From the NCBI GenBank assembly GCA_019923695.1, contig JAHXGO010000005.1, positions 1 through 34,175 on the forward strand: DNA of 34,175 bases. Direction: 5' to 3'. This document shows, piece after piece, positions 179-32,930 of this stretch (positions are counted from its first letter, which is position 1; each line of letters starts with the position of its first letter). A program made the position numbers and the translations under genes. The DNA comes from Candidatus Liptonbacteria bacterium (lineage in GTDB: Bacteria > Patescibacteriota > Minisyncoccia > UBA6257 > Colwellbacteraceae). Below the pieces are notes generated by a model that was not told where the DNA came from, ran no database searches, and was given only the letters and a program-made list of their open reading frames with translations.

Positions 179-358
179 CCAAGATAATTTTGGGAAAAAC
201 GCTTCGTCATTCTATTTAAAATATTTTTTAAAAAACTAACAATAGTAAATTTTTAACTTAATATATCAAATTAAATTTATTATAAGCAATTGGAATATTG
301 CTATGATATAATAAAAAAGAAGAGATTTCAATCAAAACTTCTTTTTATAAAATAAAAA

Positions 359-10361: not shown

Positions 10362-10637
10362 ATGAAGTTTGTTATTGTTTGTCTTCTTTTTTTAGTTTTG
10401 GTTGCGGTCGGTTATCAGCTTTACGGGGTGGCAGGTAATTATTTTTCTTTAAGAGGTCGTTTTATTGATTTTCAAAAAACAGCCGATGAACTTAAGGTGG
10501 AAAATAAAAATCTTGAGAAAAAAATAAATTATTTTGCGAACCCTTATAATTTAATCAAAGAAGCTCGTTTAAGACTTAATTATCGTTTGCCGAACGAAAG
10601 AATGATAATTATTGTTCCTCCTCAAAATAATGAATAA
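10362..10637 (+). CDS. septum formation initiator (FtsB/DivIC-like)
   Basis: 91 aa; one TM, a coiled coil and an ANPYNLIKEARLRLNY-type segment. Confidence 0.75.
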   Translation: MKFVIVCLLFLVLVAVGYQLYGVAGNYFSLRGRFIDFQKTADELKVENKNLEKKINYFANPYNLIKEARLRLNYRLPNERMIIIVPPQNNE

Positions 10638-10665
10638 TAGAAATATCAAGTTGTCTATCAAACTT

Positions 10666-10694
10666 GCGGATATAGTATAATGCTAATATCTAAC
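10666..10694 (+). pseudogene. degenerate 5' fragment of tRNA-Gly
   Basis: gcggatatagtataatgctaatatctaac matches 21 of 29 positions of the tRNA-Gly 5' end 48 bp downstream (gcgggtatagtatagtggcagtacgtgac). Confidence 0.5.
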
Positions 10695-10713
10695 TTTTAT
10701 TGAACATAATTTT

Positions 10714-10784
10714 GCGGGTATAGTATAGTGGCAGTACGTGACCTTCCCAAGGTTAAGGCGTGGGTTCAATTCCCATTACCCGCT
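10714..10784 (+). tRNA. tRNA-Gly (anticodon CCC)
   Basis: GCGGGTA/TACCCGC acceptor; anticodon loop TTCCCAA; T-arm GTGGG-TTCAATT-CCCAT. CCA not encoded. Confidence 0.95.
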
Positions 10785-10821
10785 TAAAAAATTGACTTTC
10801 GGGCAGAACATCGGCTTTTTG

Positions 10822-10846
10822 ATGGGCGGCGATGCGCGCCGCCCAT
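10822..10846. other. strong GC-rich hairpin
   Basis: ATGGGCGGCG-atgcg-CGCCGCCCAT, perfect 10-bp stem, 5-nt loop, downstream of tRNA-Gly. Confidence 0.85.
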
Positions 10847-11090
10847 TGATTTGATTTTGTGGCTCGCCGCGGTGTGCTACTTCATAATTTTAGTAACAAA
10901 TTTTAGTTTGTCTAAGAGTGTTTGATACTTTAAGTTTGAAGTTTGAAATAAGGGGCAATTATATACAAAAAATAGCAATTTTTTAAAAATTTTGATAAAA
11001 TTAATTTTATTATGTTAGAGAGAGAAAATCTTTTATTTACTTGATTTTGAGTTTATATAGTTTTTTGTTGTCTTTGTTTTATGATTTGAC

Positions 11091-11182: not shown

Positions 11183-12145
11183 ATGAATAAAGATAAAAAA
11201 GAATTTTCAGAAAATTTAGATAAATTAAAAAAGCTTTTAGCCGAACGCTTGGGTATTGAAGAAAAAAGAAGGAAATTGAGAGAGCTTGAGTTTGAAGTTT
11301 CTGATTCTGATTTATGGCAGAATAATAAAATTTTAGCCGAAGCAAAAGTTAAAGAATTCGGAATATCAAAAAATTTAATAGAAAAATTTGACGCAATTGA
11401 TTCTGTTGAAAAATTGCATCGTTTTGAAGTTGAAGCAATGACTGGAAGCAAATATGAATTTTTACCCTCAATTATTTCTGTTTATCCTGGGGCAGGCGGG
11501 AAAGATGCCGAAGACTGGGCAGTTATTCTTTTAAAGATGTATGAAAAATATGCGACTTATCGCGGTTGGGGTTTTTCTTATATTGATGATTTTATTTTAA
11601 AAATTAAAGGTGAAGACTCTTACAATATTTTACGGAAAGAATCGGGTGTCCATAGATTGGTCAGGATTTCTCCTTATGATTCAAAAAAACTAAGGCACAC
11701 TTCTTTTGCTTTAGTAGAAGTTTTACCGGACTTAAAGAAAGCTGATGTGGATAAAATTCAAATTCCCGAAAAAGACATCAAATTTGAATTTTCCCGTTCT
11801 TCGGGTCCGGGTGGACAAAATGTCAATAAAGTGGAAACAGCCGTAAAAGTTGTTCATCTTCCAACAGGATTGACTGCTTCTTCTCAATCATGTCGTTCTC
11901 AAGCTCAAAACAGAGAACAAGCAATAAATATTTTAAAAGCTAAAATCATTAAATTAATGGAAGTTAATCGGGAGACAGAAATAGAGAAATTAAAAACTAA
12001 AACTGTTCCAGAGTGGGGGAGTCAAATTCGTTCTTATGTTATGCATCCTTATAAACTAGTCAAAGATCATCGCACTGGCGTTGAAACTGCGAAAATAGAC
12101 GAAGTTTTAGATGGTCGACTTGATGATTTTATAGCAAGTCGTTAA
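11183..12145 (+). CDS. prfB: peptide chain release factor 2
   Basis: PGAGGKDAEDWAVILLKMYEKYATYRGW, GVHRLVRISPYDSKKLRHTSFALVEVLPD (RF2-type tripeptide region) and SSGPGGQNVNKVETAVKV (GGQ). Confidence 0.95.
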   Translation: MNKDKKEFSENLDKLKKLLAERLGIEEKRRKLRELEFEVSDSDLWQNNKILAEAKVKEFGISKNLIEKFDAIDSVEKLHRFEVEAMTGSKYEFLPSIISVYPGAGGKDAEDWAVILLKMYEKYATYRGWGFSYIDDFILKIKGEDSYNILRKESGVHRLVRISPYDSKKLRHTSFALVEVLPDLKKADVDKIQIPEKDIKFEFSRSSGPGGQNVNKVETAVKVVHLPTGLTASSQSCRSQAQNREQAINILKAKIIKLMEVNRETEIEKLKTKTVPEWGSQIRSYVMHPYKLVKDHRTGVETAKIDEVLDGRLDDFIASR

Positions 12146-12200
12146 GTTTAATATATGGTAAATCGCTAAATTTAATATATCAAAGCTTTACTTTACTATA
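12131..12200. repeat. dispersed palindromic element, two degenerate copies (intergenic prfB-ftsE)
   Basis: tatagcaagtcgttaagtttaatatatgg followed by an inverse-orientation copy taaatttaatatatcaaagctttactttactata. Confidence 0.6.
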
Positions 12201-16026: not shown

Positions 16027-16419
16027 TTGAAAAATAAAATGATATTTATAACAAAACGAAGCTCTGATATATTGAACCAGAATTTTGATATGTCTTCCGA
16101 CGAAAAAAAAATTCATTGGACTTCTCATGCCAAAGCGAAAATGAGATTTTACGCTCTATCTGAATCAAGAATTAAAAGGATAATCAATTATCCGGACAGA
16201 ATTGAAGAGGGGATAGCTTTTGATACCATCGCTTTAATGAAAGATATTTCAGGAACAAAAAAATCGCAGGAGATTTGGACAATGATTCAAAAAAAGAACA
16301 AAAAAATAATAGTTATCAGCGCTTGGCGTTATCCAGGAAAAACAAAGCCGGACAATCCCTTGCCTCGCAAAATTCTTATAGAAATCAGTGAGGCCTTATT
16401 AATTAAAAACAATGTATAA
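16027..16419 (+). CDS. DUF4258-like small protein
   Basis: IHWTSHAKAKMRFYALSESRIKRIINYPDRIEEGIAFDTIALM...IIVISAWRYPGK. The true start may be ATG 16090 (MSSDEKK), which would exclude the repeat-derived N-terminus. Confidence 0.6.
   Translation: MKNKMIFITKRSSDILNQNFDMSSDEKKIHWTSHAKAKMRFYALSESRIKRIINYPDRIEEGIAFDTIALMKDISGTKKSQEIWTMIQKKNKKIIVISAWRYPGKTKPDNPLPRKILIEISEALLIKNNV
16047..16091 (+). repeat. dispersed palindromic element copy at 5' end of the DUF4258-like ORF
   Basis: tataacaaaacgaagctctgatatattgaaccagaattttgatat; translates as (I)TKRSSDILNQNFD in the extended frame. Confidence 0.65.
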
Positions 16420-17155
16420 ATTATCAATAAATAATTTTTCTGGACCGCTTCAAAAACTTCTAGAATTAATTGAGGAAAAAGAGCTGGAGATAACCCAAGT
16501 TAGTTTGGCGCAAATTACGGCTGATTTTCTTAATTATTTAAAATCTTTAGATAAAATTGAGGCGCGAGTTTTGGCTGATTTTGTAGCCGTGGCCGCAAAG
16601 CTTATGGTGATAAAATCAAAAAGTCTTTTACCTGATTTGCGATTAACGCCTGAAGAAGAAAAAGATATTAAAGACTTAGAGGAAAGACTAAAGTTATATA
16701 AAGAATTTAAAAACGCCGAAGCCGGCCTAAAAAAAGTTTACGCTGAAAATAAATTTTCTTTTTCCAGAAAATTTTTGCCGGTAACAGATATTGGTTTTTT
16801 TTATCCATCATCGAATTTAACAATTAACTCTATTCATTCTTCTCTTGAAAAAATTTATGAAACCACCACTGCTTTAAAATTTGAAAAAGTTGAACGCAAG
16901 ATGATTGATTTTAAAGAATATATAAATCAGCTTTTTTTGAGAATTGGTTGTCTTTCGACTACAAAAGGGGATGGATTGTCCTCTGGCTATAAATCAAAAT
17001 TCAGCGATTTAAGTTTTGGTAAAAAAAGGGAAGAAATAATTATGCTTTTTTTAGCTGTTCTTTATTTGATTCAAGATAATCTTGTCAAGATTAGCCAAGA
17101 AAATCATTTTTCTGATATTATTATAGCAAAGCGAAGCTTTGATATATTGAATTAA
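16412..17155 (+). CDS. scpA: segregation and condensation protein A
   Basis: FSGPLQKLLELIEEKELEITQVSLAQITADFLNYL and AAKLMVIKSKSLLP; C-terminus KRSFDILN lies in a repeat. Confidence 0.93.
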   Translation: MYKLSINNFSGPLQKLLELIEEKELEITQVSLAQITADFLNYLKSLDKIEARVLADFVAVAAKLMVIKSKSLLPDLRLTPEEEKDIKDLEERLKLYKEFKNAEAGLKKVYAENKFSFSRKFLPVTDIGFFYPSSNLTINSIHSSLEKIYETTTALKFEKVERKMIDFKEYINQLFLRIGCLSTTKGDGLSSGYKSKFSDLSFGKKREEIIMLFLAVLYLIQDNLVKISQENHFSDIIIAKRSFDILN

Positions 17156-17190
17156 GATTCACTATAGCAAAGTAAAATTTAAAATCTTAA
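17122..17190 (+). repeat. dispersed palindromic element (one copy plus partial second copy in tandem)
   Basis: TATAGCAAAGCGAAGCTTTGATATATTGAATTAAGATTCAC then TATAGCAAAGTAAAATTTAAAATC; includes CAAAGC-GAA-GCTTTG hairpin. Confidence 0.75.
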
Positions 17191-17740: not shown

Positions 17741-18709
17741 ATGTCTAAAGAGCTTAAAAAGATATTTTATTATATTTTTTCCAGTATTATTTTAATTTTG
17801 TTTATAACCAGTTTTAAGGTTATTTCTGAAATCGATTCGGCGCCGAATCTTAAACAGGTTTATTCTTCTGAAATTTATAACGAGCAGTACGCCGCTCGAT
17901 ATATTGAGTTTTCGATTCAGTATAATAAACAGCGCGCTATTCGATCTATTGAGCTTGAAGATCAATATACCTTTTCTTCTTTAAAAAAATTATCGAATAA
18001 TTCACAACTTAATAATGAATTAACGAATTTATTGGCTCCGATTTTTTTAGTTTTTGATTTTAGAAAAAATGCCATAATTTTTTCAAAAAATAGTAATCAT
18101 CGCTGGCCCTTGGCGTCTTTAACAAAACTGATGACAGCTTTAATAGCTTTAGAAAACCTGCCTAAAGATAAAATTATTAAAATAAACGAAAAAGGAGAAG
18201 AATTTAAGGTTTTAGACCTGATAAAGGCAACAATAATTTATTCTTCAAACGAAGCGACGCTGGCTTTGTCTAATTCTTTTTCTGAAAAAGAATTTATTTT
18301 ACTAATGAATAAAAAGGCCGAAGAAATTGGTATGAAAAATACAATTTTTGAAGAACCAACAGGGCTTTCTATGTTTAATCAGTCAACTGGAAAAGATGTG
18401 ATAAAATTGGTAAAATATATTTTAAGGGTTCAGCCGCTGATTTTTGAAATTGCCCAGCTTCCTCAAACAACTATCATTGAACAAAAAAGCGGAACAAAAA
18501 TAGATATTTACAACACCCATCCTTTTGTTGGACAGCTGAATTTTATGGGAGGTAAAACCGGACTTATTAGGATTAGCAACGGTAATTTGCTTTCAATTTT
18601 TGAAAATAATAAAAATTTAGTTTTAATAGTAGTTCTTGGGGCGGAAGACCGCTATGAAGAAACAAAAAAAATAATGGATATTTATATTCAACAATCAAAA
18701 CTTGATTAA
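17741..18709 (+). CDS. D-alanyl-D-alanine carboxypeptidase (peptidase S11)
   Basis: SLTK (SxxK), SSNEA (SxN) and GGKTGLI (KTG) motifs; ATG at 17741 preferred over 17660. Confidence 0.85.
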   Translation: MSKELKKIFYYIFSSIILILFITSFKVISEIDSAPNLKQVYSSEIYNEQYAARYIEFSIQYNKQRAIRSIELEDQYTFSSLKKLSNNSQLNNELTNLLAPIFLVFDFRKNAIIFSKNSNHRWPLASLTKLMTALIALENLPKDKIIKINEKGEEFKVLDLIKATIIYSSNEATLALSNSFSEKEFILLMNKKAEEIGMKNTIFEEPTGLSMFNQSTGKDVIKLVKYILRVQPLIFEIAQLPQTTIIEQKSGTKIDIYNTHPFVGQLNFMGGKTGLIRISNGNLLSIFENNKNLVLIVVLGAEDRYEETKKIMDIYIQQSKLD

Positions 18710-20616: not shown

Positions 20617-20686
20617 ACCATAGCAAACAATATCCTGCTCAATATATAAACTTAAGTTTTGATATAGTAAAATTAAGATTCACCAT
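20617..20686. repeat. dispersed palindromic element copies (intergenic, 3' of cobO)
   Basis: AAGTTTTGATATAGTAAAATTAAGATTCACCAT closely matches the 17134-17165 copy; adjacent inverse-looking TGCTCAATATATAAAC. Confidence 0.7.
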
Positions 20687-23469: not shown

Positions 23470-24667
23470 ACTTAAAAATAAAAAAAGAAGAAAACTGAAG
23501 ATTGTTTTAGCCGGCGGAGGCACAGGAGGTCATTTTTATCCGCTTTTAGCGGTTGCTGTTGAGTTTCAAATTTTAGCGGCCCAACAAAATATAGACCTTG
23601 ATCTTTTTTATCTGGGGACAGCATCTACAAAATATTATAATTTATTTTTAAAAAATAATATTGTCGTCAAAAAAACGTTAGCTGGAAAATTTCGCCGTAC
23701 CTTAAGTTTGTCAAATCTCTTTGATTTAATAAAATTCGCAATCGGTTTTTTACAATCGTTATGGCATCTTTTTTGGATTATGCCGGACGCGGTTTTTTCC
23801 AAAGGAGGGCCAGGAGCTTTATCCGTTGTTTTTGCGGCTGTTGTTTATAGAATTCCTGTTTTTATTCACGAATCAGATTCTGTTTCTGGTTTAACAAATG
23901 TGATTTCCGCTAAATTTTCCAAAGCGATATTTATAGCTTTTAAAGAAAATGCCAAAAGTTTTAATCAGAATAGAAATGTGGTGGTGAGCAGAATGCTCAA
24001 TATATCAAGCAGTATGCCGCTTACTATAGTTGTCGGTAATCCTATTAGACGTTACATTCTCAACGATATTCCAAAAAAAGAAAGAGCAAAAAAAATTTTA
24101 GGCCTTAATCCAGAAATTCCTCTTTTATTGTTTTTAGGTGGGTCTCAAGGCGCGGTTAGAATAAATAATATTGTGATTAAAAATTTAAAATCTCTTCTTT
24201 CAAATTATCAAATTTTTCATCAAATAGGAGACGCCAATTATAATGATTTTGAAAACCAAATTAATTCTGTTTTAAAAGAAATTCCTTTTAAAATTCGCAG
24301 TCGGTATTTTTTCGTCGATTATTTTTATGATGATTTCAAAGATATTTTAGCCGCAGCTGATTTAGTTATTTCACGAGCAGGCAGTGGCGCTATTTTTGAG
24401 ATTGCCGCTTTTGGCAAGCCGTCGATTTTAATTCCTTTGCCGGAATCCGCTTCTGACCATCAGTTGTTAAATAGCCAAATATATTCGTCTTCCGGAGCAG
24501 CCTTAGTGATGGAAGAAAAAGATTATTTTCCAGAACATTTTCTTAATTTAATTGAAAGTCTTTTATTGAATCCAGAAATTCTGGAAAAAATGTCCGTGAG
24601 AGCTAAAGAATTTAGCAAACCAGAAGCGGCTAAAATAATCGCTCAAAAAATAATTGAATTAACTTAA
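23462..24667 (+). CDS. murG: UDP-N-acetylglucosamine transferase MurG
   Basis: VLAGGGTGGHFYPLLAVA, FIHESDSVSGLTN, VGNPIR, FLGGSQGAVRIN, DLVISRAGSGAIFEIAAFGKPSILIPLPESASDHQ. Confidence 0.95.
   Translation: MPELKNKKRRKLKIVLAGGGTGGHFYPLLAVAVEFQILAAQQNIDLDLFYLGTASTKYYNLFLKNNIVVKKTLAGKFRRTLSLSNLFDLIKFAIGFLQSLWHLFWIMPDAVFSKGGPGALSVVFAAVVYRIPVFIHESDSVSGLTNVISAKFSKAIFIAFKENAKSFNQNRNVVVSRMLNISSSMPLTIVVGNPIRRYILNDIPKKERAKKILGLNPEIPLLLFLGGSQGAVRINNIVIKNLKSLLSNYQIFHQIGDANYNDFENQINSVLKEIPFKIRSRYFFVDYFYDDFKDILAAADLVISRAGSGAIFEIAAFGKPSILIPLPESASDHQLLNSQIYSSSGAALVMEEKDYFPEHFLNLIESLLLNPEILEKMSVRAKEFSKPEAAKIIAQKIIELT
23984..24028. repeat. 45-nt dispersed palindromic element inserted in frame in murG
   Basis: gtgagcagaatgctcaatatatcaagcagtatgccgcttactata sits between NVVV and VGNPIRR; shares ATATATC/GATATATTGA core and CTATA terminus with other copies. 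Confidence 0.6.
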
Positions 24668-32358: not shown

Positions 32359-32404
32359 TTATAATGAATCAAAATTTAATATATTAATGCTTCACTTCAC
32401 TATA
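32359..32404 (-). repeat. dispersed palindromic element copy upstream of rpmB
   Basis: Reverse complement TATAGTGAAGTGAAGCATTAATATATTAAATTTTGATTCATTATA aligns with the 17122 copy. Confidence 0.65.
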
Positions 32405-32784: not shown

Positions 32785-32930
32785 CACGCGAATAAACTCA
32801 TACTAAAATCGGAGTGTCGTATAGTGGCAGTACGCATGCATGGGGTGCATGTAGCGGCACGCGAATAAACTCATACTAAAATCGGAGTGTCGTATAGTGG
32901 CAGTACGCATGCATGGGGTGCATGTAGCGG
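32785..32930. repeat. perfect 73-bp tandem duplication
   Basis: cacgcgaataaactcatactaaaatcggagtgtcgtatagtggcagtacgcatgcatggggtgcatgtagcgg occurs twice in tandem (32785 and 32858). Confidence 0.97.
32810..32857 (+). pseudogene. truncated tRNA-Pro (first 48 nt)
   Basis: Identical to tRNA-Pro positions up to the variable loop; lacks T-arm and 3' acceptor strand. Confidence 0.92.

Follow-up and report, generated by a model that had tools for sequence, protein, structure and literature searches.

What is the sequence that ends the scpA gene of this Liptonbacteria contig, and does it belong to something larger? A first-pass annotation of the window (the whole 34,175-nt stretch of DNA analysed here) had noted, at the last ScpA codons, TATAG...CTATA ends around a CAAAGC-GAA-GCTTTG hairpin, a partial second copy in tandem, and sister copies elsewhere. 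Ends and hairpin are indeed present at 17122-17166, which reads TATAG-CAAAGCGAAGCTTTG-ATATAT-TGAATTAAGATTCA-CTATA; a partial further module begins at 17162; and the four sister copies (at the end of prfB, near the N-terminus of a 130-aa ORF, and at two intergenic sites) are all real (Table 1). Missing from that list were the copies in the peptidase S11 gene and in murG, and the degenerate doublet at the start of the window. The observation was thus correct but undersized: the stretch at 17122-17166 is a single member of a family dispersed through the genome, which we call TATAG after its ends.

Table 1. TATAG elements and the scpA gene in the 34,175-nt window.
Feature	Position	Strand	Evidence
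Weak degenerate doublet	241-284		
Overlapping array of two doublets at the end of prfB; codes RF2 tail IASR-stop	12130-12200		
Degenerate doublet near N-terminus of 130-aa ORF (FITKRSSDILNQNFDM)	16047-16091	+	
scpA; final ~10 codons element-derived	16412-17155	+	Alignment with relatives; Pfam SMC_ScpA
Module 1: TATAG-CAAAGCGAAGCTTTG-ATATA, 6-bp stem, GAA loop; codes ScpA tail IAKRSFDI	17122-17146	+	
Module 2, inverted: TATAG-TGAATCTTAATTCA-ATATA; ATATAT common with module 1; holds ScpA stop codon	17143-17166	-	
Third module of the array, partial (CTATAGCAAAGTAAAATTTAAAATC)	17162-17186	+	
Two tandem doublets (second decayed) in N-terminal part of peptidase S11 (DacA-like) gene	17876-17965		
Decayed array, intergenic	20619-20685		
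49-nt doublet in frame in murG (VVSRMLNISSSMPLTI); family relatives lack it	23980-24028	-	Protein alignment
Doublet, intergenic	32360-32404		

Aligned copies from the Liptonbacteria genome define a unit of 44-51 nt, TATAG-hairpin-ATATAT-hairpin-CTATA, in which two hairpin modules are paired head-to-head: a single module is 5'-TATAG-hairpin-ATATA-3', and a doublet is a module plus an inverted module with ATATAT common to both. Conservation among the aligned profile matches is confined to three short boxes; what lies between the boxes is always a hairpin, though not a constant one. Stem sequences vary from copy to copy while complementarity is kept, and hairpin types mix freely within doublets (AAAACGAAGTTTT with GAACTTTAGTTC, GAGCGGTACGCCGCTC with GAACTTCGAGTTC, and others). 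The modules alternate strictly in orientation: counted on exact boxes across the genome, neighbors are head-to-head in 13 cases, tail-to-tail in 6, and head-to-tail in 0; at the one-mismatch level the tail-to-tail pairs are mostly head-to-head arrays that have been extended, and tandem doublets overlap via a CTATAG junction. Nearly all perfect modules (40/43) lie within head-to-head doublets, and 3/43 lie outside any doublet. One variant is lengthened by a 24-nt spacer around TGCGATCGCA, and the 101-nt composite (spacer) copies on contigs C7 and C16 are 100% identical, which argues that the family has spread recently. Folded as single-stranded DNA the elements reach a z of about -4, and the TATA of the TATAG foot pairs with the 3' TATA, leaving the foot partly paired.

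The genome scanned comprises 422,137 bases in 22 contigs and is ~96% complete. A profile search of all of it, the means of counting copies that the first-pass annotation had proposed, yields 83 matches, 49 of them with E <0.01; high-confidence loci number ~49 in all and take up 0.55% of the genome. The annotation had also staked its reading on an excess over shuffled sequence, and that excess is found: modules with perfect boxes and a stem of at least 5 bp number 43 in the genome and 0, 0, and 0 in three Markov shuffles; exact doublets picked by their boxes alone number 13, against 0 in five shuffles; and doublets with at most 1 mismatch number 31-33 (depending on how overlapping matches are merged), against 0-2. 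A reversed-pattern control in the exact-doublet search of our genome collection returned 0.

The stems covary. The hairpin slots of exact doublets hold a stem of at least 5 bp in 73% of cases, against 2.6% after letter shuffling. Among 27 distinct 15-nt hairpins, 87% of cells are paired (78.5 +/- 1.3 when shuffled) and 41 double changes are seen (18.7 when shuffled), values that 0/500 shuffles reach in either case. Pairing in the more uniform 18-nt hairpin set is not above column shuffles, but these hairpins pair at 86% in register and at no more than 50% once the register is shifted. Imperfect palindromes corrected by template switching could also yield compensatory changes; the covariation therefore indicates that the hairpin is maintained, but not the force responsible.

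Placement relative to genes is far from random: of the 49 loci, chance alone would put 39.9 inside ORFs, 2.7 across ORF edges, and 6.5 outside ORFs, whereas the observed numbers are 8, 10, and 31, respectively, the counts being approximate, as ORFs of at least 100 aa were chosen greedily and two inside copies were added by hand. At scpA, the conserved core of the relatives' proteins stops at ..DIII and is followed by 2-8 unrelated residues; the Liptonbacteria protein runs on beyond DIII into the element, which codes IAKRSFDILN-stop, so that the element does supply the ScpA C-terminus as originally claimed. The RF2 terminus IASR-stop is likewise element-coded. N-terminal fusions to the element are likely, though less certain, in HolB, guanylate kinase, YqeY, and a PHP protein, since translation could start downstream. 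Matches within SecD and LigA were judged to be chance because the peptides fit normal protein. Two other irregularities were seen in genes of this set: scpA carries an ~11-residue insertion at residues ~178-190 (CLSTTKGDGLS region), which has no counterpart in relatives and no match to the TATAG element, and in the RNase HII start region (C1:54383-54763) the IIGIDEVGR segment is repeated and the gene is interrupted by a TATAG element where the contig ends.

A few copies interrupt essential proteins without breaking the reading frame. The MurG doublet codes its peptide directly before conserved VVGNPIR, where protein alignment gives 13-17 residues fewer in 23 family relatives and where a solved MurG structure also has a gap; an AlphaFold model of MurG (20 sequences) predicts that the fold is kept (mean pLDDT 86) and puts the insert within residues 171-190, which join a helix to a strand and are modelled at low confidence. 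In MreC, a 46-nt doublet lies inside an 18-residue insertion that is absent from 24 relatives in the alignment. The genus is represented by one genome, and so offers no nucleotide-level empty site; judged from the protein alignments, then, the TATAG element has been inserted in frame in both murG and mreC.

Beyond this genome the family is scarce. The exact doublet occurs in 0 of 26 other genomes of the family Colwellbacteraceae; among 245 genomes of the order and an even draw of 387 from the class (nearly all of 0.4-1.5 Mb), the only other matches that fit were in a single genome of another family, G135; nothing matched in viral contigs, phages, or plasmids; no Rfam family covers the elements; and a ScpA-based scan of genome contigs returned lactobacilli only. 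The open-access papers that we searched, a set that takes in few subscription titles, describe no such repeats in Patescibacteria. The G135 matches sit on contigs of 565 and 4,046 bases, and the remainder of the 568 kb examined in G135 has no TATAG elements. Because the longer contig codes a protein 93% identical to a Liptonbacteria one, where G135's own proteins are ~40-60% identical, the element-bearing contigs most likely entered the G135 assembly as contamination from a sister of the Liptonbacteria organism, and the transfer between families that the matches had first suggested was rejected. These contigs, C19 and C32 of G135, carry tRNA-Ala and tRNA-Ser genes that are missing from the Liptonbacteria assembly. 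As to other tRNA genes, the window holds an exact 73-bp tandem duplication over the 5' part of a tRNA-Pro gene (32785-32930), and a C4 tRNA called Stop(tta) is, by its loop, tRNA-Lys(UUU).

How did the copies disperse? We think it probable that TATAG is a REPIN/BIME-like family of non-autonomous mobile hairpins with HUH (Y1)-type spread and with a new tag in place of GTAG or CGTC. Each unit would present two short inverted hairpins, their 5' TATAG feet outward and ATATAT as their common centre, and would spread as folded single-stranded DNA cut in trans by an HUH (Y1) nuclease, the model precedent being REPINs and RAYTs, and would leave no target duplication; selection would then remove gene-breaking copies, so that the survivors would be intergenic copies, copies in tolerant loops, and copies at the ends of genes, to which they give new termini. 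An unlikely alternative is that a DDE transposase moves a miniature element, with a TA or TATA target duplication concealed in the TATAG...CTATA ends (compare the ends of the Correia elements of Neisseria); the CTATAG array junction would then record a later copy that had landed in the end of one already there. The symmetric ends and the nested arrays with common TATA suit such an element, and the genome does contain at least one other family with DDE-type duplications: a separate, MITE-like family, its members 113-279 nt long and bounded by TGTAA...TTACA (C1:31943-32055, C12:41709-41917, C2:7639-7917, and further C12 copies), has exact 7-bp target duplications (TCTAATG, TGTAAAG, TATAACG) in 3/5 copies. 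With that family as internal control, the result that direct repeats of 3-8 bp flanking 31 TATAG doublets are not above chance argues against an ordinary DDE element; moreover, the TATAG terminal repeats span just 5-6 nt, a DDE element has no need of covarying, internally swapped hairpins or a conserved ATATAT centre, and no transposase was recognised by eye between neighboring copies, where the ORFs read as housekeeping genes. Of the earlier proposal, then, the idea of a small dispersed family, non-autonomous and able to remodel the ends of genes, survives, as does its likeness to Rickettsia palindromic elements (given the in-frame MurG and MreC copies); a classical MITE, with terminal inverted repeats of 15-30 bp and a target duplication of 3-8 bp, is not supported. 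Elsewhere in the genome, another repeat (C1:38334-38862; C19:5803-5992 and 10557-10847; C1:14430-14627; C11:49-195) has in its long copy an ORF that by eye looks like a four-helix bundle (S23/IVP-type), and its other copies are internally deleted, which suggests a mobile element carrying that ORF.

Location at gene edges and covarying stems would also be expected if the copies were not mobile but served the host as terminators, mRNA stabilisers, or nucleoid-protein sites, with selection for hairpins retaining them at the ends of genes; but the in-frame MurG and MreC insertions, the arrays, the near-identical copies at unrelated sites, the absence of elements from all 26 family relatives, and the lack of a covering Rfam family make this very unlikely. 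Within the REPIN-like explanation, a more specific form has the genome's own RAYT-like Y1 transposase (C7:8577-9275) as the mobiliser. This gene is the sole Y1_Tnp match in the genome, and a dense TATAG cluster lies on the same contig; we nevertheless find the assignment doubtful, as the gene is immediately bordered on either side by another hairpin, TTACGATGTCGGGAATCGTAA, in the same orientation (C7:8553-9323), with four copies in total (one of them within the Y1 reading frame and one at C5:6572), the nearest TATAG cluster is 1.2 kb off, and Y1 genes of similar score are present in relatives that have no TATAG elements. For these reasons we infer, rather than name, a mobilising enzyme. A broader suggestion, which we regard as rather doubtful, is that TATAG would be a third REP-type class, moved by an unrecognised enzyme in a minimal Patescibacteria genome, in which new hairpins form while boxes and symmetry are kept, and which furnishes essential genes with new segments and termini.

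Protein-coding palindromes owe their fame to Rickettsia, where they were seen as possible raw material for new protein segments. A second example, from a genome of 422 kb in which the MurG and MreC insertions are clean and the tag differs, would show the phenomenon recurring among reduced genomes, independently of the GTAG and CGTC classes; the TATAG family would also offer a compact and testable system in which to ask what enzyme mobilises these repeats and how essential proteins accommodate insertions.

The Correia/Nemis elements of Neisseria have TATAG...CTATA ends and gene-proximal insertions, as does the TATAG family, but the latter has end repeats of 5-6 nt, a total length of 45-50 nt, and two separate hairpins. 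Parallels are also found among REPINs, head-to-head pairs of REPs whose stem changes compensate one another (PMC3116915), and among the GTAG and CGTC repeats, which form head-to-head pairs found also within genes and at gene ends (PMC3733652). TATAG shares with REPIN/BIME the head-to-head unit of short hairpins, the alternating arrays, the compensatory stem changes, and a mainly intergenic, partly intragenic distribution (PMC3116915, PMC3733652), with 40/43 modules in inverted pairs and 31/49 loci extragenic; it differs in that i) its tag is a partly paired TATAG, whereas REPs have an unpaired GTAG; ii) its pair has a common 6-nt centre and is spacer-free, apart from the one variant with a 24-nt spacer; and iii) no RAYT gene is flanked by TATAG repeats, the lone Y1_Tnp gene being flanked by the other hairpin. 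The last two guide bases of TnpA-REP, AG, have been implicated in the choice of a CT cleavage site (PMC8266576). TATAG resembles IS200/IS605 and TnpA-REP substrates in having a hairpin with a short 5' guide that retains AG, with CT directly 3' of the downstream hairpin (PMC8266576), although cleavage of TATAG is putative and the Liptonbacteria Y1 gene has other flanking hairpins. Like the Rickettsia palindromic elements (RPE-4/RPE-6, RPE-1), it is found in a reduced genome, inserted in frame in protein genes that have no relation to one another (here MurG and MreC), and in head-to-head pairs for which a dedicated transposase is not known (PMC3733652, PMC10969869); R. conorii RPE-4 and RPE-6, however, are CGTC repeats (PMC3733652), whereas TATAG ends in its own tag, has no CGTC in its consensus or similarity to an RPE class, is shorter than the cited ~150 bp, and inhabits another host lineage (PMC3733652, PMC10969869). 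TATAG thus works like the GTAG and CGTC repeats, yet we assign it to neither class, since it has neither tag and no matching REPtron. We conclude that it is a previously unlisted family resembling known small mobile repeats.
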